In this document: piece by piece, positions 16,501 to 62,852 of the stretch
Layout: each line of letters starts with the position of its first letter
How positions within the stretch are numbered: the first letter of the stretch is position 1
From: a virus
IMG/VR virus record: IMGVR_UViG_3300017917_003016
Coordinates: 62,001-126,000 of that record
Direction: 5' to 3' (one strand)
Length of the DNA: 64,000 nt
The notes under the pieces: model-generated
Told to the model about the DNA's origin: nothing
The model's input: only the letters and a program-made list of their open reading frames with translations
The model's database searches: none
Position numbers and translations under genes: made by a program

Positions 16501-19500
16501 GTGTAAACTACTACCTGGGTAATACCGCAATTATCACCAGTAACGTTTATGTATCATCGGGTAACGTAACAGCACAATACCTATTTGGTAATGGTAGCCA
16601 ACTGACAGGCATACCAAGTTCATATAGCAATGTTCAAGTGGCTACTTACCTAGCCACAGGATTATCTTCAAATATTGTTGTTGGCACAGGAGCATTTTTT
16701 GTAGGTAATGTGTCAGCAACCACTACCATGCAATACAGTAGTGGTCAAGGTGGCTTACTATTTACAAAACTTGTAGGCGGAACCGGCGCGGCAATCTATA
16801 GTCTAAATGTGACCCCAAGTGCACAAAACTATGCTTTGTCAACCAATGGAGCATCATTGAATTTAAATGCACCAACTGGTGGCGGCGTTTATACCAGCAT
16901 CAACAATACCTTAGTTACATCATTGACTGCTGGATACTTGAACGTAGCAGGCAATGTGTCAGCGGCAAACGTTTCAGCACAATATCTATTTGGTGACGGT
17001 AGCAATCTAACCAATATGTATAGCAACGTAAACGTTACCAATTACTTGCCGTCGCACACAGGCAACGTTGGTGTTAACTACTTGCTAGGTACGACACCAA
17101 ATGTAATATTAACAGCAGGCACATTCAACAGTACATTTGACACTCTGGGTAATGTGTCCATGCCCAATGTTTATGTTACTGGTAATGTCATTGCTGGATA
17201 TTTCATAGGCAATGGAAGTTTACTAACAGGATTGCCCAGCAGTTACAGCAACACCCAAACAGCCGCTTACCTGAATACCATGGGTTATAACCTGTATTCA
17301 AACGTAAACGTGGCCGCGTACATGCCCACATACTTGTCTAGTTACACAGGCAATATCACAGCACAGAACATTACCGTCAGCGGCAATATTAATCTAACTG
17401 GTAATATCCTGCAGATCAACAGCGCGGTATTCTATGGTAATGTTGGCACGGGCTTCTCGGCATTATACGCTGGTGCCCCTGGCTATACACAACTACCACA
17501 AGTAGTAGCGCAGTTTACAACCAACTATAATGGCTACGCACAACTTAACTCACAAAATTTAGGTGTTGGTAACCAAGCATCAACCGACTTTGTAGCCACT
17601 GCTAATAATGGTAATGACAGCGCATACTTCGTAGATTTGGGCATTGCAGGCAATGGATACGATCCTGCAGTGGGTGCTAATAACAACGCACTTGGTACAG
17701 TATTATCAGCCAACGATGCTTACTTGTACACCGCAGGTAATACCGCAGTTAATGTGGGTGGTAACTTGGTTATTGGTGTTCAAACACAGAATAAGAACAT
17801 TAAATTCTTTGCTGGCGGCGTTAATGCCAACAATGTGGTGTTGACCATAGCCAATACTGGTATCACTACAAGTAACGTCACAGCCGACTATTTGATTGCC
17901 AGTGGGCAGTTCTTAACATCATTACCGGGATATGCCTACAGCAATGTCAATGTCAAAGCCTATACTGAGTCTATGGGCTTCCAAAATTACGGTAATGTCA
18001 ACGTAGCAGCATTGATAACAACCAATGGACTTACCAACTACAGTAATGTTAACGTAGCAGCATATGCTCAAACTCAAGGTTATACTAACTATAGTAATGT
18101 TAATGCAGCAGCATTTACGTCGGGACTCACAAACTACAGTAACGTAAACACTGCAGCCTACTTAAACAGCCAAGGTTATAACCTATACAGCAATGTCAAC
18201 GTAATCGCTTATCTAGCAGGTAATATCACTGTGGGTAATGTCACTGCTACATATTTTACTGGTAACGGTGCATTCTTAACAGGGTTACCGGCGGGTTATA
18301 GTAATGTTCAGACTGCAGCATATTTAAACGCTACAGGTTACAACTTATATAGCAATGTCAACGTTGCGGCTTACCTAAGCACAGCAACTATTAATACCAC
18401 AGGTAATATCACGGCCGCTTACATCAGCGGTAATATTTCAGTAACTGGTAATGTAACAGGCACAAGTCCAAATGTAACGATACAAGCCGGCAGTTACTCG
18501 AGTGTATTTGATAATCAAGGTAATGTTACAGTTCCAAGATTATTTGCCAACGGTAATATTCAAAGCACAGGTTACGTATTTGGTAACGGCGCGTTCTTAA
18601 CTGGTGTAGTTACAGGTAGTAGTTACAGCAATGTCCAAGTGGCCACATACTTGCCAACTTACTCGGGCAATATTGCCAATGTCAGGCTTGGCGTAAGTGG
18701 TGTGTTAACATTCCCAGATGGCACAACACAAATCACAGCAGCCACAGGCGGCGGAAGTTCGTATAGCAATGTCAATGTAGCAGCCTATATATCAACCTAC
18801 ACAGGAAATTTATCAGCAGGTAATGCCAATATTATCAGCAATTTAACTGTTGGTAGTTACATATCAACATCGGGTACAGGCGGTAACATTTCAGGTGTTA
18901 ACTTCTACCTTGGTAACCTTGCTATCCTAACAGGCAATATCACAGCCAGTTCGTTCATCGGTAGCGGTATATACTTGTCAGCACTACCCGGATATGCTTA
19001 TAGCAATGTTAATGTTATTGCTTATCTAAATGCAACTGGCTACAACTTATACAGTAATGTAAACGTGGCCGCCTATCTAACAACCTACGGTGGTGCAATA
19101 CAGTCGAGTAACGTTCAAACAACCACAGCCAACATACAGGCACTCACAGCATCTACTAACAATGCCACTGGTGCACTGCGTGTCATGGGCGGTGCCGGCA
19201 TACGCGGTAACTTGAATGTAGGATCATTGGATATTCCAGGTGCTCTGCATACTATAGTGGGTAATGTTAGTGTTACTGGCGCTGGCACTGAATACTTTAA
19301 CATTGGTGGCAACGTCATGGCCATCCAAGGTTCGTTTGGTTCAATCAATGCCACTGGTGCAATCAATACCACAGGTAACGTTTTGGCTGCTAGCATTGTT
19401 GGTACATTAGCCACTGCTAGTCAGACAGGTATTACCGCAGTTGGTACATTGGCTACCTTAACTGTATCAGGTAATGCCACAGTTGGTAATTTAGTGGGTG

Positions 19501-21410
19501 TTGAGGCTAACACACGTATTATTGCTAACAATTATGTGTCAACGTTTGATATCTATGGAAATGTAACATTCCCTGGTAATGTTATTGCTACACGGTTTAT
19601 CGGTGACGGTAGTCTACTAACTGGTATCGCAGGCGGTGGAACTAACTATTCAAACGTAAACGTGGCTGCTTATTTAAATACACAAGGTTACAACTTATAC
19701 AGTAACGTAAACGTGGCTAGTTATCTAGGCACAGGTCAGATTACAGTTGCTAATCTAAAATTGGCACCAAGTGGCAATATCGTATTTGCTGATGGTACAA
19801 CACAGACCACAGCAGGTATTAATAATAATTATGGTAATGTAAACGTAGCAAGTTATCTGGGCGCAATGAACCCAGTTAAACTTGGGTCAGGTGCAGGTGC
19901 AACAAGCCAAGGTACAGATGCGGTGGCCATTGGCCGTGATGCCGGCAAACAACAGGGCACAGAAGCAGTGGCCATTGGTGTTATAGCAGGTCAGACCAAT
20001 CAAGGAAATTGGGGTGTAGCAATTGGCAGTAGTGCAGGTGCAAGTAATCAAGGCGCTCGTGCGGTGGCCATTGGTGTACAGGCTGCTGAAGTTACTCAAG
20101 GCGTGGGCGCAGTGGCCCTTGGTGCATATGCAGGTGACAACAATCAAGGACAATATGCCATTGCTGTTGGTTATCAAGCAGGTCCCCTTAATCAACCACA
20201 AAACAGTATTATATTAAACGCCAGCGGGTCAACATTAAATGTTTCTAATAGTGGTCTATATGTAAATCCAGTACGAAATGATTTGGCCAATGTTGCTAAT
20301 GTAATTTATTACAATGCAGCAACCAATGAACTAACCTATGCGCCAGCAAGCGCCATATATTCAAATGTACAGGTCGCTACATATCTGCCAACTTATAGTG
20401 GAAATATTTCTTCTGGTAATGTTACAACTATTGGTAATGTCACAGCCAGTTACTTGGTTGGTACACAAGTTGGTAATAGTGTTGGTACTACGGCAACCTA
20501 CACTGGTAACATATCGGCTGGTAATGTCTCAGTTACAGGCAACGTTACTGCCGGTTACTTAGTTGGCATTCATGTTGGTAACGCAGTTGGTACAACAGCC
20601 ACATATACCGGTAATGTTAATGCCGCATACTTCATCGGTAATATCGCTAGTAGCCCAAGTGGTAATCTAAACGTTGTTGGCAACTTGATATCTACAGGTT
20701 ATGGCTTCTTCCCAGGAGCATATAACGAAAGTGCTACAACATCTGGTGTGTTTATTGGTAACACTGGTAGTGGGACACCAACTCCACGTATTGGATTCTA
20801 CAATGGTAACGTTACACAGAACTGGCAGGTAGACAACTACTTTGGCCAATTCCGTTGGTTTACTCCTGGCATTACACAGATGACATTAGATCCTACTGGC
20901 AGTTTGTCAGTAACAAACGCTACGGTTACAACATTAACAGCAACCGGAAACGCAAACGTTGCTGGTACTGGTGGCATATCTATACCAAATCGACCAGCGT
21001 TCCGGGTAACTGGACAAGGTAGTTCACAGACTACAGGTGCTAACCTTACATCTAGCAACTGGACTGTTGATTATACCCAAGGAAACTCTGCGGCTTATCT
21101 AAACGGTACTAATGGTACATTTACAGCACCAGTGGCTGGCCTATACCAAACCAGCCTAACAGCCAGAACATCGACTAATACTAATGCTAGTATCATACAA
21201 GCAGTGATATATCAGATAAAAGGTGGAACTCAAACAGTGGCTCTGATGATTGAGTGGGGACCAAATACCTCATTTAATCACGCTAGTGGATCAACTACGG
21301 TTAAATTGGCTGCAGGCGACAAACTGTATGTAACCTGTACAGCCAATGGCGGCGGCTCAGGATTCAGTTTTGACGGTAATGATCATTGGGACGTAGTCTA
21401 TTTGGGATAA
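13581..21410 (+). CDS. Giant chimeric tail fibre/adhesin, 2609 aa
   Basis: The largest gene here. The N terminus (SVAGRTGNVILTVNDI) is of the kind found at the base of many phage fibres. The shaft contains dozens of YSNVNVAAYL-type units and recurrent GNG..LTGI and FPDGTTQTTA modules. Two copies of a segment of roughly 70 aa (around residues 910 and 1710) are nearly identical. Residues about 2097-2210 hold YadA/Hep_Hag-like head repeats (Q-G...AVAIG..AG, about six copies). The final 140 residues look like a C1q/TNF-like trimeric knob (PAFRVTG..., FTAPVAGLYQ). Bacterial-adhesin-like head plus C1q tip suggests host recognition. The repeats could cause assembly error, so exact length needs care. 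Confidence 0.88.
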   Translation: MSDPVNSVAGRTGNVILTVNDIVGFDNANFANTAYVDLQLNAIVGGAPGALQTLANLANALNDGSNIASVIINDITLLQANDAVQSGNIRTLQNQVTALQLGNAAVTGRVTSLETANTVQYAAISSISTTITNMLNGTAQFQDLVTVGNGIYNLGSEIHQWKYGYFTDKIFLGGHQLTVDYYGNLRIDGHLVATGNVNLDLSNYSGNIVPSTNRRYTIGNVNYQWHSLFVSNTVYIGGTSLTISNGNLLVNGNVITGSGGTANTGNIVFNGTSIALDAGKVAAASTVLELSPNAEGWAYLQLPNDISGNIYNTRLHNDAGNVEIGTGDSSHGGPGYTWTFGRDGLTRFPSGLRFPGQYSDIVTANVGIDNKDIDIYTNEWMGGGVEVYLEHDSRVSIQTNNGGYIWGFDKYGNLTLPHNSRITEVPSPVPGNYALSLSGTGAVSPDQQLLIYPTSIDANHLHLTTGNLYNTELFFGNDDLFVKLSNIGDIVVNTNNNQGNTAQWTFGADGTLTTPGTVKTNLISSRAAGQRVTIDPDGTNLSYIRVDGFDDGGERIVISNQFTNSLGMYFYTENGTFRMYQNMLGFPDSTWQTTAFSNAAIDTYLVAETVKNIHGNVTIFGNLFVNGSTTTISTNNYVISDNIVNFANANPADSLDIGFVGHRTPSGQPLQHTGLVRDASANQWKLFSNVTQNPGATVDFTDAVYDDLQVGNITSPTITAINANIAAANAAIAFANTIQSQQIAAANVGMKGYVDSQTFYSNARVATYLQYGNIANISAAGNVTATYFIGNGALLTGIAASSSYSNVQVATYLPTYSGNLSAGGYFGMAGADGTTVVDFQTGAATNQIITLSSNYTFSIKAGAAASNRGSLVLESGQNSRVRINGNGSNVLITAGNGTQSSTWIFANSGVLTFPDGTTQTTAASGGGSNYSNSNVASYLVTYTGNLSAGNANIISNLTVGSYLTTSGTGGNISGVNYYLGNTAIITSNVYVSSGNVTAQYLFGNGSQLTGIPSSYSNVQVATYLATGLSSNIVVGTGAFFVGNVSATTTMQYSSGQGGLLFTKLVGGTGAAIYSLNVTPSAQNYALSTNGASLNLNAPTGGGVYTSINNTLVTSLTAGYLNVAGNVSAANVSAQYLFGDGSNLTNMYSNVNVTNYLPSHTGNVGVNYLLGTTPNVILTAGTFNSTFDTLGNVSMPNVYVTGNVIAGYFIGNGSLLTGLPSSYSNTQTAAYLNTMGYNLYSNVNVAAYMPTYLSSYTGNITAQNITVSGNINLTGNILQINSAVFYGNVGTGFSALYAGAPGYTQLPQVVAQFTTNYNGYAQLNSQNLGVGNQASTDFVATANNGNDSAYFVDLGIAGNGYDPAVGANNNALGTVLSANDAYLYTAGNTAVNVGGNLVIGVQTQNKNIKFFAGGVNANNVVLTIANTGITTSNVTADYLIASGQFLTSLPGYAYSNVNVKAYTESMGFQNYGNVNVAALITTNGLTNYSNVNVAAYAQTQGYTNYSNVNAAAFTSGLTNYSNVNTAAYLNSQGYNLYSNVNVIAYLAGNITVGNVTATYFTGNGAFLTGLPAGYSNVQTAAYLNATGYNLYSNVNVAAYLSTATINTTGNITAAYISGNISVTGNVTGTSPNVTIQAGSYSSVFDNQGNVTVPRLFANGNIQSTGYVFGNGAFLTGVVTGSSYSNVQVATYLPTYSGNIANVRLGVSGVLTFPDGTTQITAATGGGSSYSNVNVAAYISTYTGNLSAGNANIISNLTVGSYISTSGTGGNISGVNFYLGNLAILTGNITASSFIGSGIYLSALPGYAYSNVNVIAYLNATGYNLYSNVNVAAYLTTYGGAIQSSNVQTTTANIQALTASTNNATGALRVMGGAGIRGNLNVGSLDIPGALHTIVGNVSVTGAGTEYFNIGGNVMAIQGSFGSINATGAINTTGNVLAASIVGTLATASQTGITAVGTLATLTVSGNATVGNLVGVEANTRIIANNYVSTFDIYGNVTFPGNVIATRFIGDGSLLTGIAGGGTNYSNVNVAAYLNTQGYNLYSNVNVASYLGTGQITVANLKLAPSGNIVFADGTTQTTAGINNNYGNVNVASYLGAMNPVKLGSGAGATSQGTDAVAIGRDAGKQQGTEAVAIGVIAGQTNQGNWGVAIGSSAGASNQGARAVAIGVQAAEVTQGVGAVALGAYAGDNNQGQYAIAVGYQAGPLNQPQNSIILNASGSTLNVSNSGLYVNPVRNDLANVANVIYYNAATNELTYAPASAIYSNVQVATYLPTYSGNISSGNVTTIGNVTASYLVGTQVGNSVGTTATYTGNISAGNVSVTGNVTAGYLVGIHVGNAVGTTATYTGNVNAAYFIGNIASSPSGNLNVVGNLISTGYGFFPGAYNESATTSGVFIGNTGSGTPTPRIGFYNGNVTQNWQVDNYFGQFRWFTPGITQMTLDPTGSLSVTNATVTTLTATGNANVAGTGGISIPNRPAFRVTGQGSSQTTGANLTSSNWTVDYTQGNSAAYLNGTNGTFTAPVAGLYQTSLTARTSTNTNASIIQAVIYQIKGGTQTVALMIEWGPNTSFNHASGSTTVKLAAGDKLYVTCTANGGGSGFSFDGNDHWDVVYLG

Positions 21411-49364: not shown

Positions 49365-49665
49365 ATTTATAACCTATCCAGACGTAGTCAACTCAACAGG
49401 AAACCATACAGTTTTGTTGGTTGATGCAGACCTTGATGATGTTGCTAATCTAGCCACTTTCTGTAGTTTGAGCCGGAGAGACTATGACATTTATTTGTAC
49501 AAGGGATCGCAGGATGATCTACAATGGTTATCCTACGTAAACAATCTTTCTAGTAAGACCTTTATAAGAGAACCTAGCGAAGTTACCATAACCGGCGTAG
49601 AACGATATTCATCGATTGATAGACTCAAAGACTATTTTACTAATATTGATAAGTCTCCCCAGTAA
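49342..49665 (+). CDS. Hypothetical protein, 107 aa
   Basis: Starts 23 bases before the end of the membrane-protein gene. Alpha/beta pattern HTVLLVDADLDDVANLATFC, then YDIYLYKGSQDD, like a small Rossmann or PIN/NYN-type fold with conserved-looking acidic residues. Not recognised with confidence. Confidence 0.75.
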   Translation: MKNQTPSRFITYPDVVNSTGNHTVLLVDADLDDVANLATFCSLSRRDYDIYLYKGSQDDLQWLSYVNNLSSKTFIREPSEVTITGVERYSSIDRLKDYFTNIDKSPQ

Positions 49666-49698
49666 TCAAAATTAATTTTTTTGATAAAAATTTAGCAT

Positions 49699-49706
49699 GA
49701 TAAATA
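49699..49706 (+). promoter_or_regulatory. T4-type late promoter octamer
   Basis: GATAAATA about 30 nt before the bS21 gene. Confidence 0.55.
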
Positions 49707-49736
49707 ATATACTCATATATTGGGGAATACATTTTT

Positions 49737-49970
49737 ATGGGGTATGACAAAATAATCAAAGGCAACACTGTCTACGTTAAAAACGACAATGTAGATCAGG
49801 CTCTGCGCAAGTTTAAAAAACGTGTACAAGACAGTGGTTTACTGCAAGAACTTCGCGACCGCGAGTTTTATGAAAAGCCAACTAGCGTAAGAAAACGCAA
49901 GGTTGGTGCAGCCAAACAGCGTTGGCGCAAGCGTGTAGAGAGCGAGAAACTACCAAAGAAAATGTTCTAA
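49737..49970 (+). CDS. rpsU: Ribosomal protein bS21, 77 aa
   Basis: Small basic protein matching bS21: VYVKNDNVDQALRKFKKRV, then GLLQELRDREFYEKPTSVRKRKVGAAKQRWRKR. bS21 sits on the 30S subunit by the anti-Shine-Dalgarno region and helps initiation. Phage copies are known in marine phages and could replace the host protein. The gene itself has no canonical binding site; only a distant TTGGGGAA lies about 16 bases upstream. The stop overlaps the convergent radical SAM gene by four bases. Confidence 0.93.
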   Translation: MGYDKIIKGNTVYVKNDNVDQALRKFKKRVQDSGLLQELRDREFYEKPTSVRKRKVGAAKQRWRKRVESEKLPKKMF

Positions 49971-51517
49971 GCAAGTATTTTTTTCATCCGATCGGTGATT
50001 AAATTATCTATAGGATAATTGCTGTTAAGAATATTTTTAATAATTACGTTATTTTGATTTTTATCTGCAAGCATGCTGTGATCGTAACCGATAGTCCTTA
50101 GTTCAGGATATTCAATTAGGTCCGCTGGGTAAAAATTATCGAAGTATTCTCGATCATCTTTTTCAACTAATTTGGCTACCTGTTTAAAACTTACCCCTAC
50201 ATTATTGACCCAACCGTCCTCTCCCCAAGTAAGTTGATATTTTTCATAGTCGTTACTCATTGAATTTGTTTTTATAACAATGTGTTTATGTTCGGGAGGG
50301 GTTACCCAAAGTGCACTATATTTGTAACTGTCAACCAATGGTGTAGTTTTTAACCAAGCCATTGTTTCTAAAATACTGTCGTACGGTTCCCATGGTAATC
50401 CGGCTATCATGAGAGCATTAATTAAAACATCCTGTTTCCATACAGATCTTAAGTGTTCAAGTGTTTCTATAATTCTAGATCGCCCAAGCCCTTTTCCAAC
50501 AAATTTGCCTGCTTTGTCATGCAAGGTTTCAATACCAAAACAACCTAATTTACAACCTGATTCCATCAACCATTGTGCACTTTCTGGATTTGACCAGATA
50601 AGGTCTAATCTCAAATAACTAACCCATTCTGGAGTAAAAGGCAATTTACTCCAAACTTCGTCGTAAAGCGTTTTAATCTTATGATCACTATCATTATACA
50701 AGTCGTCTAATAGATGATATTTGGTAACACCAAACAATTCATAATTTCGAATTAGTTCATCTAATAGCGTTTTGGTGTATTTTGTAGTATCAGATTTTCC
50801 TTTATGATCGTAGGTGCAATAAGCACATTTAAACGCACATCCTCGACTTACTTCTAAAGTTAGCCACTCATCTGGAAGGATATGATCGTTGGGAGTATAA
50901 ATTATACTACTCGATTTAAATTCTTTTTCTCCTTCGTATGACTGTGGAACTGTTGTTTTGTTTGATAAGGCGTTGGTAAAATCAACTATAAAATCTTCAG
51001 TATAACCTACTGAAAAGTGTATGAATGGGCTAGACAAATTTAACGCACCTTTTTTAATATGACTTACCCAGGTACCACCTATCATTAAATGAGCATTTGA
51101 TTTTTTAAAAGCATAATCCGCTAAGGCTGTTAATTCGTCTGTGCCCCAAGCCAGTTGCGTAACGGCGGTAGTTATATAGGTTAAGTTAGTTAATACATTA
51201 AGATTTAAAAAATCTTCAGAACTTTCTCGCCAAAGGGTTCGATATTCGTCAATATTATTAGATTTAATAGTTAAAAAGGTAGTGCTAACGCCTATCCACA
51301 ACAGTGTTGAGGCGTGTTGGTCAATGAGATTTTTAATTGCTCTTAACGTCAGACGCAGGCAATTTGGAACAACTAAAACTTCATACCCTTTAGAACGTAA
51401 CACGCTGGCTACTTTATAGGCTCCAGCGGCTCTAGAGTATCTTTCTAATTGTATACTTGTTCCTTGAAGTTCCCTTGTTAGCGGACTTCTGTCTGTAAAA
51501 AGAATTACTTGAGCCAT
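49967..51517 (-). CDS. B12-binding-type radical SAM protein, 516 aa
   Basis: N-terminal region 1-190 looks like a cobalamin-binding Rossmann domain (YKVASVLRSKGYEVLVVP, WIGVS, HLMIGGTWVS). The radical SAM barrel follows, with CAFKCAYCTYD (Cys-x3-Cys-x2-Cys) near 233-243. LGCFGIETLHDKAGKFVGKG is typical of this class. Substrates of relatives include sugars, lipids and peptides. It is expressed from its own minus-strand late octamer (51538-51545). AT-rich and adjacent to an oxygenase-like gene on the other strand, it looks like an accessory module. Confidence 0.88.
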   Translation of the reverse strand: MAQVILFTDRSPLTRELQGTSIQLERYSRAAGAYKVASVLRSKGYEVLVVPNCLRLTLRAIKNLIDQHASTLLWIGVSTTFLTIKSNNIDEYRTLWRESSEDFLNLNVLTNLTYITTAVTQLAWGTDELTALADYAFKKSNAHLMIGGTWVSHIKKGALNLSSPFIHFSVGYTEDFIVDFTNALSNKTTVPQSYEGEKEFKSSSIIYTPNDHILPDEWLTLEVSRGCAFKCAYCTYDHKGKSDTTKYTKTLLDELIRNYELFGVTKYHLLDDLYNDSDHKIKTLYDEVWSKLPFTPEWVSYLRLDLIWSNPESAQWLMESGCKLGCFGIETLHDKAGKFVGKGLGRSRIIETLEHLRSVWKQDVLINALMIAGLPWEPYDSILETMAWLKTTPLVDSYKYSALWVTPPEHKHIVIKTNSMSNDYEKYQLTWGEDGWVNNVGVSFKQVAKLVEKDDREYFDNFYPADLIEYPELRTIGYDHSMLADKNQNNVIIKNILNSNYPIDNLITDRMKKILA

Positions 51518-52731: not shown

Positions 52732-54648
52732 ATGTCAAAGATCATTGGTATTGACCTTGGCACCACAAATAGTTGTGTGGCCGTTCTTGAAAACAACAAA
52801 CCCCGCGTAATTGAAAATTCAGAAGGTGCTCGTACTACACCTAGTATCGTTGCCTACGGCGACGAAATCATCGTAGGTGCTAGCGCCAAACGACAAGCAG
52901 TGACCAATCCTAAGAAGACTATCTACGCTGCCAAACGTCTAATTGGTCGTAAGTTTGACGAAAAGGAAGTGCAAAAGGACATTGACCTTATGCCTTACAA
53001 GATTGTCAAGAATGACAACGGCGATGCATGGGTAGAAATTGATGACAAAAAACTAGCACCTCCGCAAATTTCAGCAGAAGTTTTGCGCAAAATGAAGAAG
53101 ACTGCCGAAGACTATCTGGGTCATGAAGTTACACAGGCTGTGATTACTGTGCCAGCCTACTTCAACGATGCACAACGCCAGGCCACTAAAGACGCTGGCA
53201 AGATTGCTGGTCTAGAAGTTTTGCGTATTATCAACGAGCCTACTGCTGCTGCACTGGCCTATGGCTGTGACAAGACCTCTAAGAAGGACCAGCGGGTTGC
53301 AGTATATGACCTAGGTGGTGGTACTTTTGATATTAGTATCATTGAAATTTCTGAAGTAGACGGCGAAAAGCAATTTGAAGTTCTTGCTACCAACGGTGAT
53401 ACATTCTTAGGCGGTGAAGACTTTGACCAACGTCTTATGGACTATCTCATTGACGAATTTAAGAAGGATTCAGGTATCGATCTTGGTAAGGATCCAATTG
53501 CCCTGCAACGTGTCAAATCTGCGGCTGAAAAGGCTAAGATCGAACTATCGGGTCAACAACAGACGGAAGTCAATGAACCCTACATTGCTATGGACTCTAC
53601 AGGGCCCAAGCATCTTAACGTTAAGATTACCCGTGCCAAATTTGAAAGTTTGGTTGCAGATCTTATCAAGCGTTCGATTGAACCCTGTAAAGCAGCCATC
53701 AAGGACAGTGGCGTAAATATCGCAGACATCGACGAAGTCATCCTCGTAGGCGGACAAACTCGCATGCCCAAAGTTCAAGAAGCAGTTAAGGAACTGTTTG
53801 GCAAGGAACCTCGCAAGGATGTCAACCCAGATGAAGCAGTTGCCGCCGGTGCTGCAATCCAAGGTGCTGTGTTGGGAGGAGATAAAACAGACGTACTGTT
53901 GCTGGACGTTACTCCTCTTTCTCTAGGAATTGAGACCATCGGTGGAGTGTTTACTAAATTAATTAGAAAGAATACAACTATTCCTACCAAGGCTACCCAA
54001 GTGTTCAGCACCGCAGACGACAATCAACCTGCAGTTACAGTCTGTATTGCACAGGGCGAACGTGAATTTATCAAAGATAACAAGATTCTTGGCCAGTTCA
54101 ACCTTGAGGGTATTGAACCTGCTCCACGTGGAATTCCTCAAATTGAAATTACTCTAGACATTGATGCCAATGGTATTCTTAAGGTATCGGCCAAAGACAA
54201 GAAGACCGGCAAAGAAAACAAGATTACCATCAAGGCCAACAGCGGTCTGAGTGAGGAAGAAATTGAACGCATGGTTAAGGATGCTGAAGCCAATGCTGAA
54301 GCAGATAAAAAAGCACGTGCACTAGTGGACACTAAAAACAATGCTGAACAGCAGATCTATAGTGTTAAGAAGACATTAGACGAACTTGGCGACAAGATTA
54401 CGTCTGATGAAAAGACCGCTATTGAAACTGCTATCAAAGCCGTTGAAGAAGCAATTAACGGCGATGATATTTCTGGTATTACTGACAAGGTGGAGGAACT
54501 TACCAAAGTTTCTGGTCCGCTATTTGCTGCATACCAGGCTGATGCTGCTGCCAAACAAGCAGAAGTGCAGCCCGGTGAGCCACAAAATTCAGAGAAGGCA
54601 GCGGATGTAGTTGATGCTGAATTCACTGAAGTAAAGAAAGATGCCTAA
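52732..54648 (+). CDS. dnaK: Chaperone DnaK (Hsp70), 638 aa
   Basis: Full-length Hsp70, the same length as E. coli DnaK. N-terminal [13 protein letters not shown], then [24 protein letters not shown] and the linker [19 protein letters not shown]. The substrate-binding domain and lid follow, ending VVDAEFTEV. Folds proteins in an ATP cycle with DnaJ and GrpE, neither of which is in this window, so host partners are implied. Preceded by an exact late octamer and a ROSE-like hairpin, followed by hsp20 with the same hairpin. Confidence 0.97.
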
Positions 54649-54665
54649 TGGGTCTTTCATGTTAA

Positions 54666-54684
54666 TCTTGCTTAATTAAGGAGA
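54666..54684 (+). promoter_or_regulatory. ROSE-like RNA thermometer hairpin upstream of hsp20
   Basis: TCTTGCTT, loop AATT, AAGGAGA. Same TTGCT anti-Shine-Dalgarno box, bulged G (54670), U-G pair and seven-base spacing to the ATG at 54691 as the dnaK hairpin; only the loop and flanks differ. Confidence 0.78.
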
Positions 54685-54690
54685 CTAAAA

Positions 54691-55134
54691 ATGAAGCAAC
54701 ACTATGTTACAACTTTTGATATTCCAACAATCAGTCGTTTTGCTGTGGGTTTTGACCGTATGTTTGATGAACTTCAGCGCACCGCTACTACCCTTAATGG
54801 TACCAACTATCCTCCCTACAACATCGTTAGGGTCGATGAAACTCAATATGACATCGAGTTGGCCGTAGCAGGTTTTGAAGAAGATGAATTGGATGTTGAA
54901 GTACAAAATGGTGAACTCAGCATTCGCGGTGAAAGCAAGAGCGAGTCTGCTCGACTGGGAAATTATATCCATCAGGGTATTGCTAGTCGTAATTTTGTAC
55001 GTACATTTGCTCTGGCAGATAATGTAGAAGTCAGGACCGCCACTGTTAAGAATGGAATCCTTACAGTGAAGTTAGAAGTAATTGTGCCTGAGCACGAAAA
55101 GCCAAAAAAGATTGCTATTACTTTTCAAAAGTGA
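54691..55134 (+). CDS. ibpA: Small heat shock protein Hsp20/IbpA-type, 147 aa
   Basis: Alpha-crystallin domain at about 40-140: PPYNIVRVDETQYDIELAVAGF near the start, GELSIRGE in the middle, and ASRNFVRTFALADNVEVRTATVKNGILTVKLE with the conserved (A)x(L)xNGxL motif. N-terminal FDRMFDEL matches IbpA-type starts. Holds unfolded proteins for DnaK. Encoded 42 bases after dnaK, with the shared ROSE-like leader. Confidence 0.95.
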   Translation: MKQHYVTTFDIPTISRFAVGFDRMFDELQRTATTLNGTNYPPYNIVRVDETQYDIELAVAGFEEDELDVEVQNGELSIRGESKSESARLGNYIHQGIASRNFVRTFALADNVEVRTATVKNGILTVKLEVIVPEHEKPKKIAITFQK

Positions 55135-55139
55135 TATAA

Positions 55140-55167
55140 TATAAATACTGGGGGAGGAAACTCCCCC
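55140..55167 (+). promoter_or_regulatory. Late promoter and GAAA-capped GC hairpin before clpS
   Basis: Exact TATAAATA (55140-55147) is followed at once by GGGGGAG-GAAA-CTCCCCC (55150-55167). No T run follows, so it is not a standard terminator. The stem could stabilise the 5' end of the clpS message or close the hsp20 message. Confidence 0.6.
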
Positions 55168-55188
55168 AACTAATATAATAAGGACGCT

Positions 55189-55497
55189 ATGAGCACAAAA
55201 GTTGTTACCAAAACCAAAGTCTCGCCAAATCTTAATCTACAAGAGCCTCCTCAGTACAAGGTTATATATATCAATGATGATGTTACTACCATGGAGTTTG
55301 TAATTGAATCTTTGATTTCAGTTTTTGATTACACTCTCGATGATGCGGTATTTTTAACTAAGAAAATTCATGATGAAGGTACTGGAGTCGCTGCAATTCT
55401 TCCCTATGAAATGGCCGAACAGAAGGGAGTTGAAGTCACACAACTGGCGCGCAATAATGGATTTCCTTTAAATATTAAGTTGGAGCCGCAGGGATGA
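55189..55497 (+). CDS. clpS: ClpS protease adaptor, 102 aa
   Basis: ClpS core: YKVIYINDDVTTMEFVIESL with the Asn-Asp-Asp binding site at 29-31, then KKIHDEGTGVAAI with His61, then EVTQLARNNGFPL. ClpS hands N-degron proteins to ClpAP. A phage copy could redirect host proteolysis. Preceded by AAGGAC and a late octamer. The stop overlaps the next ATG (GGATGATT). Confidence 0.95.
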   Translation: MSTKVVTKTKVSPNLNLQEPPQYKVIYINDDVTTMEFVIESLISVFDYTLDDAVFLTKKIHDEGTGVAAILPYEMAEQKGVEVTQLARNNGFPLNIKLEPQG

Positions 55498-56864: not shown

Positions 56865-56872
56865 TGTAAATA
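56865..56872 (+). promoter_or_regulatory. Late-type octamer before the curli operon
   Basis: TGTAAATA, two mismatches to the consensus, 22 bases before csgF; CAAGGAGC provides a strong ribosome binding site. Confidence 0.45.
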
Positions 56873-56894
56873 CTTTTGAGCAAGGAGCTAGACA

Positions 56895-57377
56895 ATGAAA
56901 AAAACAATAACCTACCTCGCTCTACTCGCCTCTGCACAGGTTGCTCAGGCGGCAGAGTTGGTACATCAATTTAACAGCCCGGCATTCAGTGGAGCCGGCT
57001 ACAGTGCTCACGTACTTACCGTTAAACAATTAGAAGATCAAGCCAAAGAAAAAAATCACGCTGCAGCCGAAGCCATAAAAGCAAAAGCAGAACAGGAAGC
57101 AGCCAATACTCCCCAGGCACGTTTTATTGCTAATCTAGAATCACGTATCTATAGTCAATTGGCTAAACAATTGACCGATACTATGTTTGGTGAAGGCGCG
57201 ACCTGTACAACCACTGGGGTTATTTGTGGTACTATTGACAACTTAGGTGGCAATAGTATTAGTTGGATGTTGGGTGCCGGCAGCGATGCAGGAAATATAA
57301 TTATAACAATTAGAGACCTTAATAATACTAGTAATATTACAACAATGAAGGTCCCTGCCGGTACGTTTTACTTTTAA
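56895..57377 (+). CDS. csgF: Curli assembly factor CsgF, 160 aa
   Basis: Sec signal peptide (MKKTITYLALLASAQVAQA), then AELVHQFNSPAFSGAGYSA, matching the conserved mature N terminus of CsgF (F-Q/F-NPxFGG) that plugs into the CsgG pore. C-terminal DNLGGNSISWMLGAG and TMKVPAGTF also fit. CsgF sits on the cell surface and couples secretion to fibre nucleation. First gene of a five-gene cluster; csgG starts nine bases later. Confidence 0.93.
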   Translation: MKKTITYLALLASAQVAQAAELVHQFNSPAFSGAGYSAHVLTVKQLEDQAKEKNHAAAEAIKAKAEQEAANTPQARFIANLESRIYSQLAKQLTDTMFGEGATCTTTGVICGTIDNLGGNSISWMLGAGSDAGNIIITIRDLNNTSNITTMKVPAGTFYF

Positions 57378-57386
57378 GGATGCTAG

Positions 57387-58265
57387 ATGAAAAGATCAAT
57401 ACTTGCGATTGCAGTTCTGACTGCACTAACAGGGTGTGCTAGTTCTAGCGCACTTCGAGAAAAGGCCTTTGGTGAACAGTTTGACCCTCCTACTGTAGAG
57501 CGAGAAACATTTTTTACCAAAGCAGAAAATCAATTAGCGCCGCCGGCTAGTGGACCAATCCCTGTAGCAGTCTATAGTTTTACTGACCGCACTGGACAAC
57601 GTAAAAACATTCCTAACATTGCTAGTTTTTCAACAGCAGTGACACAAGGTGGAGAAGCCTATCTTATCAAGGCTCTTCAGGATGTTGGCAACGGTCGTTG
57701 GTTTACTGTATTAGAACGTGTGGGACTGGACAACCTCATTAAAGAACGTCAGATGATACGCCAAATGCGTGAGCAATATCAGGGACGCGATGCTAAACCA
57801 TTACCGCCAATGGTGTTTGCTGGCATGATTGTAGAAGGAGCAATCACAGGATACGACAGTAATAGTTTAACAGGCGGTAGCGGAGCAAGAATTTTAGGTA
57901 TTGGCGCACAGACACAGTACCAAAGCGATACTGTTACAGTTACCCTTAGAACTATCAGTGTTAATACAGGAGAAGTTTTAACCACTGTTACTGTTACAAA
58001 AACTGTGCTGAGTTATATGGACAAGTTTGGTGTACTTAAATTTGTCAGCGCAGGCGAGCGTGCTATAGAAGCAGAGGCCGGCATGAGCATAAACGAAAGC
58101 ATTAACAAGGCCACTAGTCTAGCGGTCAAAGCAGCAGTAGTAGAAACTATTCGAGAAGGTGTCCGTAAAGGATATTGGGCACACAAGGCAGACAATCAAG
58201 AATCTGCTGTCAAGGTCGTACCTTTGCCTGCAGAACCCGCAGTGCAAAGTGAACAATTAAATTAA
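57387..58265 (+). CDS. csgG: Curli secretion pore lipoprotein CsgG, 292 aa
   Basis: Lipoprotein signal ending LTGC with acylated Cys17. The CsgG core contains PIPVAVYSFTDRTGQRK, GRWFTVLERVGLDNLIKERQMIR, MIVEGAITGYDSN, the beta-barrel hairpins around TQYQSDTVTVTLRTISVNTGEV and VTVTKTVLSYM, and the GEAYLIKAL helix. It forms a nonameric outer-membrane channel. Length matches bacterial CsgG (277 aa) plus a short tail. CsgE is not encoded here. Confidence 0.95.
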   Translation: MKRSILAIAVLTALTGCASSSALREKAFGEQFDPPTVERETFFTKAENQLAPPASGPIPVAVYSFTDRTGQRKNIPNIASFSTAVTQGGEAYLIKALQDVGNGRWFTVLERVGLDNLIKERQMIRQMREQYQGRDAKPLPPMVFAGMIVEGAITGYDSNSLTGGSGARILGIGAQTQYQSDTVTVTLRTISVNTGEVLTTVTVTKTVLSYMDKFGVLKFVSAGERAIEAEAGMSINESINKATSLAVKAAVVETIREGVRKGYWAHKADNQESAVKVVPLPAEPAVQSEQLN

Positions 58266-58277
58266 AGGAGCAAGGCA

Positions 58278-59057
58278 ATGAAACTAAAAACTTTAGTTAG
58301 TTTAGTCGCCCTAGTAGTAGCAGGATCGGCATATGCTGCCGGCGAAACCGGTCCAAACCGCGTGTATATTGAACAAATTGGTAACACTAACCTTATAACC
58401 ATTCAGCAGGTTGGTGGCACCAACGACGTTGGCGGTGTTGCAGGCAGTGCTAGTGTTGATGTAACAGGCGTAACAACCTTGACAGTTACAGCACCTAGTA
58501 CCAGTAACTACGCTACTATTAACGGCAGTAGTAACACAGTAACACTGACACAAACTGGTAGCAATAACCAAGCACAGTACAATATCAAAGGTGGTAACAA
58601 TACCTATACCAGCACAATGACTGGTAATAATAATCAAACCAAACTAACTGTGGGTTCTACCAATACCAACGGTTCACAAAATTCAATAACTGAAACTGCA
58701 ACCGGTAGCAGTAATATGTTTATCACTGATGTTGTAGGCAGTAGCAATACTTTGGCAACTACAGTAACTGGTAGTTCAAACCAAATTACTCAGAGTGTTT
58801 TAACTAGCAATGCTGACATTACTAATACTGTTAGTGGTAGCAACAATATTTTTAATATTCAACAACGTGATGCTGCAGGCAGTGCTGGACACAGTCTGAC
58901 CATGGCAACCACAGGTGACTACAATAGCATTACCACTCAGCAGCAAGGTACTAATGACACCACTGTTAATATTTCTACTCAAGGTGATCACAATACCATC
59001 ACAGTTCGTACTAGCAGCACTAGTATATTAAACTCAGCCACAGCCATAGCGAGGTAA
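58278..59057 (+). CDS. Secreted curlin-repeat protein, 259 aa
   Basis: AAAGGAGCAAGGC before the ATG is a strong binding site. Signal peptide MKLKTLVSLVALVVAGSAYA, then NRVYIEQIGNTNLITIQQVG. At least eight Asn/Gln/Thr/Ser-rich repeats of the form N.(V/I).(L/I)TQ.G..N follow, the amyloid curlin pattern (Q-x-G-x-x-N). Longer than CsgA (151 aa) and without a clear N22 CsgG-targeting segment. Likely a substrate of the adjacent CsgG/CsgF pair. Confidence 0.85.
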   Translation: MKLKTLVSLVALVVAGSAYAAGETGPNRVYIEQIGNTNLITIQQVGGTNDVGGVAGSASVDVTGVTTLTVTAPSTSNYATINGSSNTVTLTQTGSNNQAQYNIKGGNNTYTSTMTGNNNQTKLTVGSTNTNGSQNSITETATGSSNMFITDVVGSSNTLATTVTGSSNQITQSVLTSNADITNTVSGSNNIFNIQQRDAAGSAGHSLTMATTGDYNSITTQQQGTNDTTVNISTQGDHNTITVRTSSTSILNSATAIAR

Positions 59058-59060
59058 GCC

Positions 59061-60146
59061 GTGAGGGCTTATCTTGCTGCGGCATTGCTGTTAGCCAGCG
59101 TTGGGGCATGGGCAGGCATAGGTGTAGTCAGTGACACCAAGGGATCTGCCTGTGCAATCGAACGTGCTAAAAAATCATTACCTGGAGACAAAGGTGCAGC
59201 CGTTGAATCAATGGACACCTATGTTACCGGTGGGTGTGTGAGTAACATAACCTTTAATGACGACACTCGGGTTAAAATAACAGAAAACAGTAGACTGCTA
59301 ATCGATGATTTTGTGTTTGATCCCAAAAAGAGCGATGCAGGCAAGTTGGCCTTAAAAGTTTCCATGGGCACGGTTCGGTATGCCAGCGGGCAAATAGCCA
59401 AGAACAATCCACAGCGAGTTGATATTAAAACACCCAGTGCTACTATTGCAGTGCGCGGTACTGATTTTAACATGACTGTTGATGAAACCGGTCAGAGTCT
59501 TGTGATTCTTGTACCTAGTTGTAGAGACAAAGACAAGGTCAAAGAGTATGAATTAGAGGAAAATACCTGTAAAGTAGGAAAGATTGAGGTGACCACCCTG
59601 GCGGGAACTGTGAGTCTGGACAAGGCGTTTGAAGCAACATATGTGGTCAATGCCACAGTACCGCCCACACCTCCGGTAGTGCTAAACACAGTAGAAGGTA
59701 AGATTAGTAATCTACTGATTATTTCTGGGCCGCCTGAAATTCAGCGAATGATGAAGGACAACAGTAAGGCCCGCAAAGAGCAAGAAGATTGGGAAGCCGA
59801 ACAGGCCAGACAGATAGCACAACGTATAAAAGAAGGTCAGCACGAAGAGACTCCTAAAGTAGTTTCCTACACATTTGACAATGGAAAAACCGGATGTAAC
59901 CCTTCTACTAGTATTTGTGTGCGTTGGGAAAAACCCGACGGAGAAACCATACAGGATCGAGGCAAGGGTACTGCCTTTCGCTCAAATGCAGATCACTATG
60001 CAGAAGTCAAAACTCTAGGCTATGACAGCAACACTTCTCTAACCATTACTCACGATGACAGTGTAGCCACAGCACAGATTGGCAGCGGTGATTTTGGAGG
60101 CAACGTAGTTAACATCAAACAAACTACCGGAGTTCTAAGAAAATGA
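59061..60146 (+). CDS. Secreted FecR-domain protein, 361 aa
   Basis: GTG start three bases after the curlin gene. Signal peptide MRAYLAAALLLASVGAWA. FecR-type beta domain at about 50-200: VSNITFNDDTRVKITENSRLLIDDF, KVSMGTVRYASGQI, and PSATIAVRGTDFNM. This arrangement is found in exported proteins rather than in the sigma-regulator FecR with its membrane helix. C-terminal half charged, then beta-rich. It may cap, anchor or chaperone the amyloid; inference from position. Overlaps the next gene by four bases. Confidence 0.85.
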   Translation: MRAYLAAALLLASVGAWAGIGVVSDTKGSACAIERAKKSLPGDKGAAVESMDTYVTGGCVSNITFNDDTRVKITENSRLLIDDFVFDPKKSDAGKLALKVSMGTVRYASGQIAKNNPQRVDIKTPSATIAVRGTDFNMTVDETGQSLVILVPSCRDKDKVKEYELEENTCKVGKIEVTTLAGTVSLDKAFEATYVVNATVPPTPPVVLNTVEGKISNLLIISGPPEIQRMMKDNSKARKEQEDWEAEQARQIAQRIKEGQHEETPKVVSYTFDNGKTGCNPSTSICVRWEKPDGETIQDRGKGTAFRSNADHYAEVKTLGYDSNTSLTITHDDSVATAQIGSGDFGGNVVNIKQTTGVLRK

Positions 60147-61558
60147 AGTTCGTTATCGGTCTGATATTTTTGTTACTGTCTTCACTAGCACAGGCTCAAG
60201 ACCTCAGTTGGGAATCGGGTACACTCAATGGTTGGACTGTGGGTGGCGGTAGTTCAAGTTCTGTTAAATCATCAGGTTGGAGTTCAAACGGCATAGGTGC
60301 AGCAGTCAGTGGCGGTCTTACTAACTATTCTCCAGGCGGCGGCAAAACCTGGACTATTGCTCCCTATGGTACTTACATGGGTAGCCTGCAGCCAGGCAAC
60401 GGTTCGGTAACATTCGATACTGCTGTGTCAAATCTTGGATTAAGCAGCACAGAAAACACTGCAATAAAAAGTTATCTAAGTTATCAGGCCAGCAACGGCG
60501 GCGGTGGGAACCCTACACCAACTAACGCTACATGGATCAAACAAACTGTGGCACTCACAGCAGGGCAGACCTATACCATTGCATGGAACTATCTATCAAC
60601 AGATTACACTCCTTGGAACGACGGTTCTATGATAACGCTGACTCATACTACCAATGCCAATATCACTCCAACCCTAAATAACAAACAGCAAAGATATGGA
60701 CTATTGGGATTTACCAATCCGGGAACTGGTGAATATGCCACAGGTTCATACGGTAGTACCGGCTGGCAAGTGGCCGTGTTTACAGTGCCAGAAACAGGCA
60801 ACTATGTCTTAGGTTTTGCATCATTTAATCTAGGCGACACTGCACTAAGTCCTATTTTGTTTGTTGATCAATTGCAGGGTGTTACTACACTAAATGGTCA
60901 AAGTTTTGGTCCTGTTGCACCTAATCCTGGCAGCACAGCACCAACTGCACCTTCCGGTGGTGGCAGTTCTTTGTGCTGTGGCGGAAGTTCAGCAAGTTTT
61001 ACCATGGATGCAGACAAAGCAGCCAGTGTCAACGCATTTAAAAATCGTACCACAGCAGACAGTAAGGTCTACGTAGATCAAATTGGCAATGGCAATACTA
61101 TCACTGTTCAGCAAACGGGCACTAAAAATAACTATGCAGAATACAACGGCAATGGTAGTTCTAATACGGTAAACATAACTCAAAGCGGAACTGCAGCCAC
61201 AGAAGCCAACTATACAAGACTAGATATTATTGGCAACAGCAACACTGTCAATCTAACACAGACCAGCACTGGTGGGACTAAAAGTGTATTTGCCAGTATA
61301 AACAATAACAATAATTCAGTAACCATATTACAAAAAGACGCCGGCAGTCATCACCTAGATCTTACCTTAAGCGGTGGTGGCAAAACTGTAGACATCACAC
61401 AACAAGGATCTGCAGCACACATGGCAGACATTACCCTCACAGGCGCAGGTTCACGCAGCCTTACCTTGACTCAGCAGGGCAGTACTCAGCAATTCTACAG
61501 TATTAACAGCAGTTGTGCTTCAAGTTGTCAGGCCATAACCGTCACACAAGGACAATAA
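60143..61558 (+). CDS. Secreted jellyroll plus curlin-repeat protein, 471 aa
   Basis: Signal peptide MKFVIGLIFLLLSSLAQA. Residues 20-255 form a beta-sandwich-like domain (LSWESGTLNGWTVGGG, then VFTVPETGNYVLGFASFNLGD) resembling carbohydrate-binding modules. A Cys pair (SLCCGG) and linker follow. Residues 300-471 carry curlin repeats (SKVYVDQIGNGNTITVQQTG, then SNTVNITQSG, SNTVNLTQTS, KTVDITQQG). The opening repeat is nearly the same as in the 259-aa curlin, so both may nucleate on one another. A candidate surface-binding curli minor subunit. Confidence 0.85.
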   Translation: MKFVIGLIFLLLSSLAQAQDLSWESGTLNGWTVGGGSSSSVKSSGWSSNGIGAAVSGGLTNYSPGGGKTWTIAPYGTYMGSLQPGNGSVTFDTAVSNLGLSSTENTAIKSYLSYQASNGGGGNPTPTNATWIKQTVALTAGQTYTIAWNYLSTDYTPWNDGSMITLTHTTNANITPTLNNKQQRYGLLGFTNPGTGEYATGSYGSTGWQVAVFTVPETGNYVLGFASFNLGDTALSPILFVDQLQGVTTLNGQSFGPVAPNPGSTAPTAPSGGGSSLCCGGSSASFTMDADKAASVNAFKNRTTADSKVYVDQIGNGNTITVQQTGTKNNYAEYNGNGSSNTVNITQSGTAATEANYTRLDIIGNSNTVNLTQTSTGGTKSVFASINNNNNSVTILQKDAGSHHLDLTLSGGGKTVDITQQGSAAHMADITLTGAGSRSLTLTQQGSTQQFYSINSSCASSCQAITVTQGQ

Positions 61559-61580: not shown

Positions 61581-61661
61581 ATGAGTTGGACTAATCACAA
61601 AACGCCCACACCAAAAGTACCACCAAGCCAATCAAAACCACCGCACCAGCCTAATCGTTGA
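61581..61661 (+). CDS. Proline-rich peptide, 26 aa
   Basis: GTGGAGGACC lies upstream of the ATG. The peptide begins MSWTNHKTPTPKVPP and is rich in Pro, Lys, His and Gln. Its stop codon lies inside the loop of the terminator hairpin that follows. The strong ribosome binding site and late octamer support translation; no family known. Confidence 0.5.
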   Translation: MSWTNHKTPTPKVPPSQSKPPHQPNR

Positions 61662-61673
61662 TTAGGCTTTTTT
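61649..61673 (+). terminator. Intrinsic terminator
   Basis: GCCTAAT / ATTAGGC stem with CGTTG loop and six T's. It ends the curli-side transcript and isolates the PqqA-like gene. Confidence 0.88.
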
Positions 61674-61796
61674 AATGGTTTTACGCATGGTTTTTAGGGG
61701 TTTTAGGCCATATACTGTGTATAAGTAATTGTGTAACAGTATTCATTGTTATACGGTTACGAGACAACTTTAGTTTTTTATAAAGGAGAAATAAAC

Positions 61797-61868
61797 ATGT
61801 GGACCAAACCCGCTGCTCAAGACAAGCGTTTCGGTTTTGAAGTAACCATGTATATTGCTGCTCGCTAA
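61797..61868 (+). CDS. pqqA: PqqA-like PQQ precursor peptide, 23 aa
   Basis: The 23-residue product has the family pattern at every key point: MWTKP at 1-5, Asp9, Arg11, GFEVTMY at 13-19 with Glu15 and Tyr19 (the two residues fused by PqqE to make PQQ), and a final Arg23. Bacterial PqqA peptides are 23-24 aa with the same EVTxY core. AAAGGAGAA lies seven bases before the ATG, and strong terminators flank the gene on both sides, so it is a separate transcript. A candidate promoter is the TATACT at 61711-61716. No pqqB-E genes are seen here, so host enzymes would be needed. Confidence 0.85.
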   Translation: MWTKPAAQDKRFGFEVTMYIAAR

Positions 61869-61955: not shown

Positions 61956-62852
61956 ATGACTCGATATTCTTCCTATCATGAATTTGATCAAGATACAAAA
62001 AACTTACCAAGAATAAGTTATCTTGAGACCATGCTGACCTATGCTTGCACACTGAGTTGTCGCAGTTGTACAAACTACAGCGACTACGGTATGAAAGGTG
62101 GGCATGTCAAATGGTCTACAGCGAAACCGTGGTTAGATGCATGGTTTGATCGTATACGAGTGGACTGCTTTGGTTTTATTGGTGGCGAACCTCTAATGAA
62201 TCCAGAATTAGAAACATGGATTAGAGAATTTCGTAAAAACTATCCATTTACTACAATTATGATTGTAACCAATGCTCAACTGTTTACAAAAAATCTTTGG
62301 ATACTAGATGTTATGGAAGAACTAGGTATGATTTACCTTAAGTTCACTAATCACATTCCCAAAGCCAAATATTTTACCAAAGCGGTGGATACAGTATTAT
62401 CTAGATTTCCGTGGGAATATAAACCCGAGTGGGAAAGGTATTTTTATCAAGAAAAAATTCTAGACTTTCTTGTTAGTGAATCACCAACTTTTATGAAAAC
62501 CTATCGGGGTGAGTATGGTTCAATGAAACCCTACAACAACGATCCACAACAGGCATTTAAGATTTGTAATCAACAAATTTGTCCTCTTCTTTATAACGGT
62601 CGCCTCTACAAGTGTAGCAGCCTAGGTATGCTATCGAGAGTTTTACAAGACCACGGCCAAGTTGACGATCCTGACTGGCAACCGTTTGTGCAAAATCAAG
62701 GATTGGATTTAAGTTGTTCTGATGAAGAATTGCGAGCATGGGCTGATAATTTTGGTAAGCCTATTAAAGAATGTAGGATGTGCCCAACAGAGAAAGATAA
62801 ACCTTTTCATTCTCACTATGACACAGTTGTTAATAGAATTAACATTTTTTAA
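61956..62852 (+). CDS. Radical SAM protein with SPASM/twitch-like Cys tail, 298 aa
   Basis: LTYACTLSCRSCTNYSDYG carries Cys-x3-Cys-x2-Cys for the [4Fe-4S] SAM cluster. FGFIGGEPLMNPEL holds the GGEP motif. C-terminal CNQQICPLLYNGRLYKCSS and CRMCP supply four or five cysteines for an auxiliary cluster, as in peptide- or sugar-modifying radical SAM enzymes. It lies 87 bases after the PqqA-like gene. It is not close enough in pattern to call PqqE, but peptide modification is a reasonable guess. Confidence 0.88.
   Translation: MTRYSSYHEFDQDTKNLPRISYLETMLTYACTLSCRSCTNYSDYGMKGGHVKWSTAKPWLDAWFDRIRVDCFGFIGGEPLMNPELETWIREFRKNYPFTTIMIVTNAQLFTKNLWILDVMEELGMIYLKFTNHIPKAKYFTKAVDTVLSRFPWEYKPEWERYFYQEKILDFLVSESPTFMKTYRGEYGSMKPYNNDPQQAFKICNQQICPLLYNGRLYKCSSLGMLSRVLQDHGQVDDPDWQPFVQNQGLDLSCSDEELRAWADNFGKPIKECRMCPTEKDKPFHSHYDTVVNRINIF

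Follow-up and report, generated by a model that had tools for sequence, protein, structure and literature searches.

Curli operon and its relatives

Curli operons in phages have been under discussion since 2020, and the published proposals for their role (import pore, lysis pinholin, superinfection shield and sibling capture) have not yet been separated. The window analysed here is a stretch of 64,000 nucleotides that makes up positions 62001-126000 of a 201,732-base viral contig (IMG/VR record IMGVR_UViG_3300017917_003016). Coordinates are those of the window unless marked as contig. Five plus-strand open reading frames fill positions 56895-61558, with intergenic spacing of 9, 12, 3 and -4 nucleotides. 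They encode the curli export proteins CsgF and CsgG, two curlin-repeat proteins labelled Cur1 and Cur2, and a FecR-domain protein. We consider it rather likely that this is a phage curli-type operon making an adhesive fibre outside the infected cell, late in infection. The genes were as follows.

56895..57377, plus strand: csgF, predicted secreted CsgG-plugging chaperone (Pfam CsgF, 43.4 bits; phrog_35372)
57387..58265, plus strand: csgG, predicted outer-membrane lipoprotein export pore (Pfam CsgG, 170.7 bits)
58278..59057, plus strand: Cur1, headless curlin-repeat protein with signal peptide, a curlin by family evidence
59061..60146, plus strand: exported FecR-domain protein with a GTG start (Pfam FecR, 45.2 bits)
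60143..61558, plus strand: Cur2, with signal peptide, beta-sandwich head, LCCGGS motif and curlin tail (Pfam Curlin_rpt, 26.0 bits)

CsgF, CsgG, the FecR protein and Cur2 scored above the curated Pfam cut-offs (25.8, 20.8, 24 and, for Curlin_rpt, 20.7 bits), and Cur1 by itself fell below with 15.2 bits. As a family, however, Cur1 is a curlin by profile comparison, since 26 of its 28 members matched Curlin_rpt at E ≤ 0.05 and the family profile matched the solved curli fibre 8C50 (E 1.6e-7). N-terminal signal peptides were read by eye in all five proteins, with A-x-A endings and, in CsgG, a lipobox. The original prediction of csgF, csgG, curlin, FecR and curlin in tight order was thus confirmed, with Cur1 backed at family level only, and the curlin repeats on which it had been staked were recovered by profile searches. 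A chance origin of these repeats was rejected on the profile E-values. Rfam and tRNA scans across the window gave no match.

Relatives were 71 IMG/VR loci obtained from a CsgG scan, with 64-81% identity. A survey of gene order bore the arrangement out: all 54 loci on sufficiently long contigs had the five genes in the same order, and gene losses were confined to contig ends. A pore without substrates was rejected, as both substrates were present in every untruncated relative.

Modules of this kind have been described before. In pelagimyophages, Zaragoza-Solas et al. (2020) recognised CsgF and CsgG and left their operon partners unnamed, and the paper on the Methylophilales phage Melnitz discussed CsgF and CsgG alone (PMC9004378). 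Wittmers et al. (2022, PMC9599517) reported a phage type VIII secretion (curli) module with both curlins, FecR and a cyclase in pelagi-podo- and myophages. The initial remark that known phages carry csgG and csgF alone was mistaken: the Pelagibacter phage HTVC008M (KC465899; CsgG 44% and FecR 38% identical) and Melnitz (MZ577097; CsgG 42% and FecR 45% identical) both have the full set of five, arranged as here. The prediction of a working export route with two dedicated substrates stood as regards a curli-type route and signal peptides on both curlins, but not as a novelty, the route being known since 2022. Because both curlins and FecR were already published for pelagiphages in that year, the substrates are not the new element. 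Head exchange in Cur2 and a conserved promoter motif before csgF, both described below, appear to be new, as neither was found in the open-access literature searched.

The present operon resembles the pelagiphage module of Wittmers et al. (HTVC023P-type podophages and pelagimyophages) in its order, which is identical (csgF, csgG, CsgA/B-like curlin, FecR, second curlin, cyclase), and in having no CsgE. It differs in belonging to another lineage, on a contig of 201 kb, and in a cyclase that is not adjacent to Cur2. HTVC008M and Melnitz also carry the cyclase directly after Cur2, unlike the window, and their Cur2 N-termini are unlike the window head. TerL, sheath, RecA and cyclase were about 29-39% identical to their Melnitz counterparts, and the phage is therefore a distant relative of Melnitz from another phage group. 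CsgG, CsgF and curlin repeats are shared with E. coli curli (csgBAC-csgDEFG; CsgG structures 3X2R and 4UV2) and with the Pontibacter R15.5 fibre 8C50. Unlike in bacterial curli, a FecR protein lies within the operon, a curlin is fused to a head, and CsgE was not found.

Exchange of Cur2 heads

Cur2 consists of two parts.

60197..60970, plus strand: Cur2 head, residues 19-276, an exchangeable module of class D3
61058..61549, plus strand: Cur2 curlin tail, residues 306-469, with 14 short strands forming about 7 strand-turn-strand repeats in the predicted structure

The tail profile matched PDB 8C50 (E 1.2e-10), and the block predicted local distance difference test (pLDDT) score of the model was 80-95 across most of the tail and lower at its ends. 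A low-confidence linker surrounded the LCCGGS motif. The head was beta-rich and modelled with moderate confidence. Foldseek matched it to CBM35, CBM4, CBM6 and gingipain cleaved-adhesin domains, all of one kind and none passing E 1e-3. Among the Cur2 heads of relatives, F5/8 type C domains were found in 10 of 30 (L037, for example) and PA14 domains in 6 of 30 (L024, for example). Both domains often serve carbohydrate binding.

Within the 71 fetched relatives, heads were exchanged while the rest of the operon was kept. In the pair L037 and L022, CsgG was 94% identical, FecR 90% and the Cur2 tail 84%, against 13% for the head. The heads sorted into four multi-member first-domain classes and one singleton under strict-linkage clustering, whereas looser clustering merged 50 of the 51 heads. 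A 38-phage tree of CsgF, CsgG and FecR implied 13 head-class changes, a count that serves as a guide only because the tree was quick and phage genes recombine. The window's own clade of seven rows (support 100) included three head classes. A search for homologues of Cur2 heads elsewhere in the same phage, for example in tail fibres, found none. Judged from sequence, Cur2 is a constant curlin tail with an exchangeable N-terminal head, and the exchange of putatively adhesive heads favours a role in adhesion. Coating against superinfection and aggregation, two of the roles first suggested for the locus, are both retained as candidates.

These findings bear on the proposal, put forward for Melnitz on the strength of AlphaFold models (PMC9004378), that CsgG and CsgF, the two proteins modelled, have been repurposed as a lysis-timing pore, either a pinholin or a secretin analogue. 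The remaining genes would then be passengers. The late-type expression described below would suit lysis timing. However, the contig already has its own matches to a holin (contig 196513-197076) and an endolysin (contig 49609-50187), and a bare pore explains neither why all untruncated relatives retain the substrates nor why the heads of Cur2 are exchanged. We give this proposal little credence. Outer-membrane permeabilisation for lysis, one of the roles first suggested for the locus, is disfavoured on the same grounds, as a pore needs no secreted, head-exchanging curlins.

Promoter and timing

Two signals frame the operon.

56865..56873, plus strand: late-promoter-like element TGTAAATAC of T4 type, found within the operon only upstream of csgF
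61648..61674, plus strand: intrinsic terminator hairpin with T-run closing the operon (RNA fold of -15.2 kcal/mol for 61630-61680, z -4.2)

The motif NATAAATA was strand-biased across the contig, with 51 copies on the plus strand and 9 on the minus strand. Phage-wide it occurred in 39 gene upstreams; shuffled sequences gave 6 and the antisense control 2. Of the 40 distinct csgF upstreams of relatives, 33 contained TAAATA (2.6 in shuffles), which was never found before csgG, Cur1, FecR or Cur2. We interpret this pattern as a single late promoter serving the whole operon. A TATAAATA-type promoter, as in a T4-type late unit, is present, though the csgF copy is a variant. Within this phage TAAATA preceded 5 of 8 structural or lysis genes and none of 9 replication or chaperonin genes (Fisher p 0.009), in a small sample that was hand-picked after the motif list had been seen. 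Taken together, the operon is probably transcribed late.

Timing matters for two further proposals. Wittmers et al. (2022, PMC9599517) put forward superinfection exclusion, in which a curlin coat would hide receptors from competing phages and heads would vary by anchoring to the host's own variable glycans. It fits the same anatomy, and head exchange is also expected if the head binds the changing surface of the host. Exclusion is most useful early, however, and a late-type promoter is late for that. Masking and sticking are not told apart by the present results; we regard exclusion as rather unlikely overall. The second proposal, made for pelagimyophages (Zaragoza-Solas et al. 2020) and still entertained by Wittmers et al. 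(2022, PMC9599517), is that CsgG serves as an uptake pore for large nutrients or cofactors aiding phage growth. This would leave CsgF, two curlin substrates and variable heads unexplained, and a late-type promoter would allow little time to benefit. Such uptake is highly improbable.

Export proteins and putative regulators

The N-terminal segment of CsgF, F-x-S-P-x-F-x-G, was conserved, and F26, P29, F31 and G33 were invariant in 24 phages. CsgF had no match among solved chains at E 0.1. The CsgG family profile matched solved CsgG with E 2.3e-67. The CsgG lipobox is LTGC, and Cys17 was invariant. In the constriction loop, KPYPASNF of E. coli aligned with KNIPNIASF here. The Tyr and Asn of the E. 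coli loop, which we take to be the constriction residues, were not kept in the window CsgG, and the Phe was kept. Some relatives had a C-terminal bacterial SH3 domain on CsgG that is absent from the window protein (L055:8001-9233, L015:8001-9212 and L041:4351-5550).

A CHASE2-cyclase gene occupies contig 134833-136851, which places it downstream of Cur2 at a distance of 11.3 kb. Of the 51 relatives with room for it, 39 have the cyclase downstream of Cur2. An adenylate cyclase after the phage curli module is frequent but not universal (Wittmers et al. 2022, PMC9599517). The histidine kinase reported upstream in podophages by the same authors was not matched here: no histidine-kinase HATPase_c domain was detected in the contig, with all 14 controls positive.

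The structure model of the FecR protein resembled the FecR domains of PupR and BDI_1681. FecR-family relatives were searched for in four CsgG-bearing bacterial genomes and metagenome-assembled genomes (MAGs), and none was found at E 1e-6 in a search that had no positive control. Two further readings of this protein were dropped. Its C-terminus GGNVVNIKQ was considered as an extra curlin repeat, and with 35 members screened at E ≤ 1 the families listed did not include Curlin_rpt. A role as a CsgE-like plug was suggested by a 62-residue fold match to the cell-surface anchoring domain 5IX9, which was too weak (E 0.047).

Neighbouring genes, host and other CsgG matches

Directly beyond the operon lies pqqA (61797-61868, plus strand), encoding a 23-residue pyrroloquinoline quinone (PQQ) precursor peptide (Pfam PqqA, 33.2 bits) and followed by its own terminator. 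PqqA-like peptides were also found in loci L013, L014 and L072. PqqA is already known in phages of methylotrophs, as in Lake Baikal VP_266 (PMC7678222). In Melnitz, pqqA is missing from the deposited annotation (MZ577097, 76134-76208, plus strand; L102:26134-26208), where an opposite-strand hypothetical gene is annotated across it. As the PqqA peptide is encoded just downstream of the operon and Melnitz infects a methylotroph, the host of the present phage is likely to be methylotrophic. A radical SAM protein (61956-62852, plus strand) is encoded directly after pqqA. It matched general radical SAM profiles only, so its identity as PqqE is not established, and no homologue was found in the examined stretches of relatives.

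Just upstream of the operon, DnaK, Hsp20 and ClpS are encoded at 52732-55497 (plus strand), and all three were upstream in 42 of the 58 relatives with room. GroEL is also encoded in the contig. A 2609-residue protein (13581-21410, plus strand) is possibly a tail fibre; its C-terminal C1q-like domain scored 23.5 bits against a cut-off of 23.7, and a GATAAATAC motif lies 31 nucleotides upstream.

CsgG contigs filed in GTDB MAGs of Pelagibacter, Flavobacteriaceae, Rhodobacteraceae and others (L083-L090, L092 and L096) had csgF-csgG-curlin, mostly with FecR, in a phage-like layout, and are probably misbinned phage contigs. An unannotated CsgG match (42.7% identical, covering 76% of the query) was also found in OR851715.1, a record of 1,499 bases named Salmonella phage S.Kent 1-2-1, which is possibly of bacterial origin or a fragment with the wrong label.

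Proposed role of the operon

In the mechanism that we propose, CsgG and CsgF would form an outer-membrane pore and its plug. Cur1 and Cur2 would pass the pore and polymerise through their curlin repeats outside the cell, and the beta-sandwich head at the N-terminus of Cur2 would be displayed on the fibre. Infected cells would thereby be covered by a sticky coat or net. What it sticks to would depend on the head, glycans on nearby cells or particles being the probable targets, and phages would trade heads just as they do receptor-binding modules. Regulation or gating of export is the probable task of the FecR protein and the CHASE2-cyclase. An adhesive fibre is favoured over a pore because both curlins are kept everywhere, the heads are exchanged and a holin and an endolysin are already matched in the contig.

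Several observations weigh against this interpretation. Phage curli fibres have so far had no experimental demonstration, and Melnitz, with the same five genes, showed no clumping in cytograms or transmission electron microscopy (PMC9004378). The CsgE gate (PF10627) was not found in the contig, the E. coli control being positive; CsgE is present in E. coli but not in all curli systems. The window head had no Pfam match, its model was moderately confident, and its individual fold matches were not significant. As to timing, the operon's own motif copy TGTAAATAC is a variant that deviates from NATAAATA at the second base. The T4 late sigma factor gp55 (phrog_234) and gp23 (phrog_138) were undetected by PHROG profiles, in a search in which no control genome matched and on a contig that is possibly incomplete. 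Because neither was detected, the term late rests on the motif.

Going one step further, we tentatively suggest that the curli amyloid may be a modular display scaffold. The constant tail would polymerise and recombination would swap glycan-binding heads like tail-fibre tips, so that the infected cell would be glued late to whatever brings progeny to new hosts. The swappable head on a conserved curlin tail and the single late-type promoter make the rival roles testable, and they speak more for a secreted adhesive fibre than for a bare pore. If this holds true, viruses would build an extracellular amyloid glue whose specificities are interchangeable.

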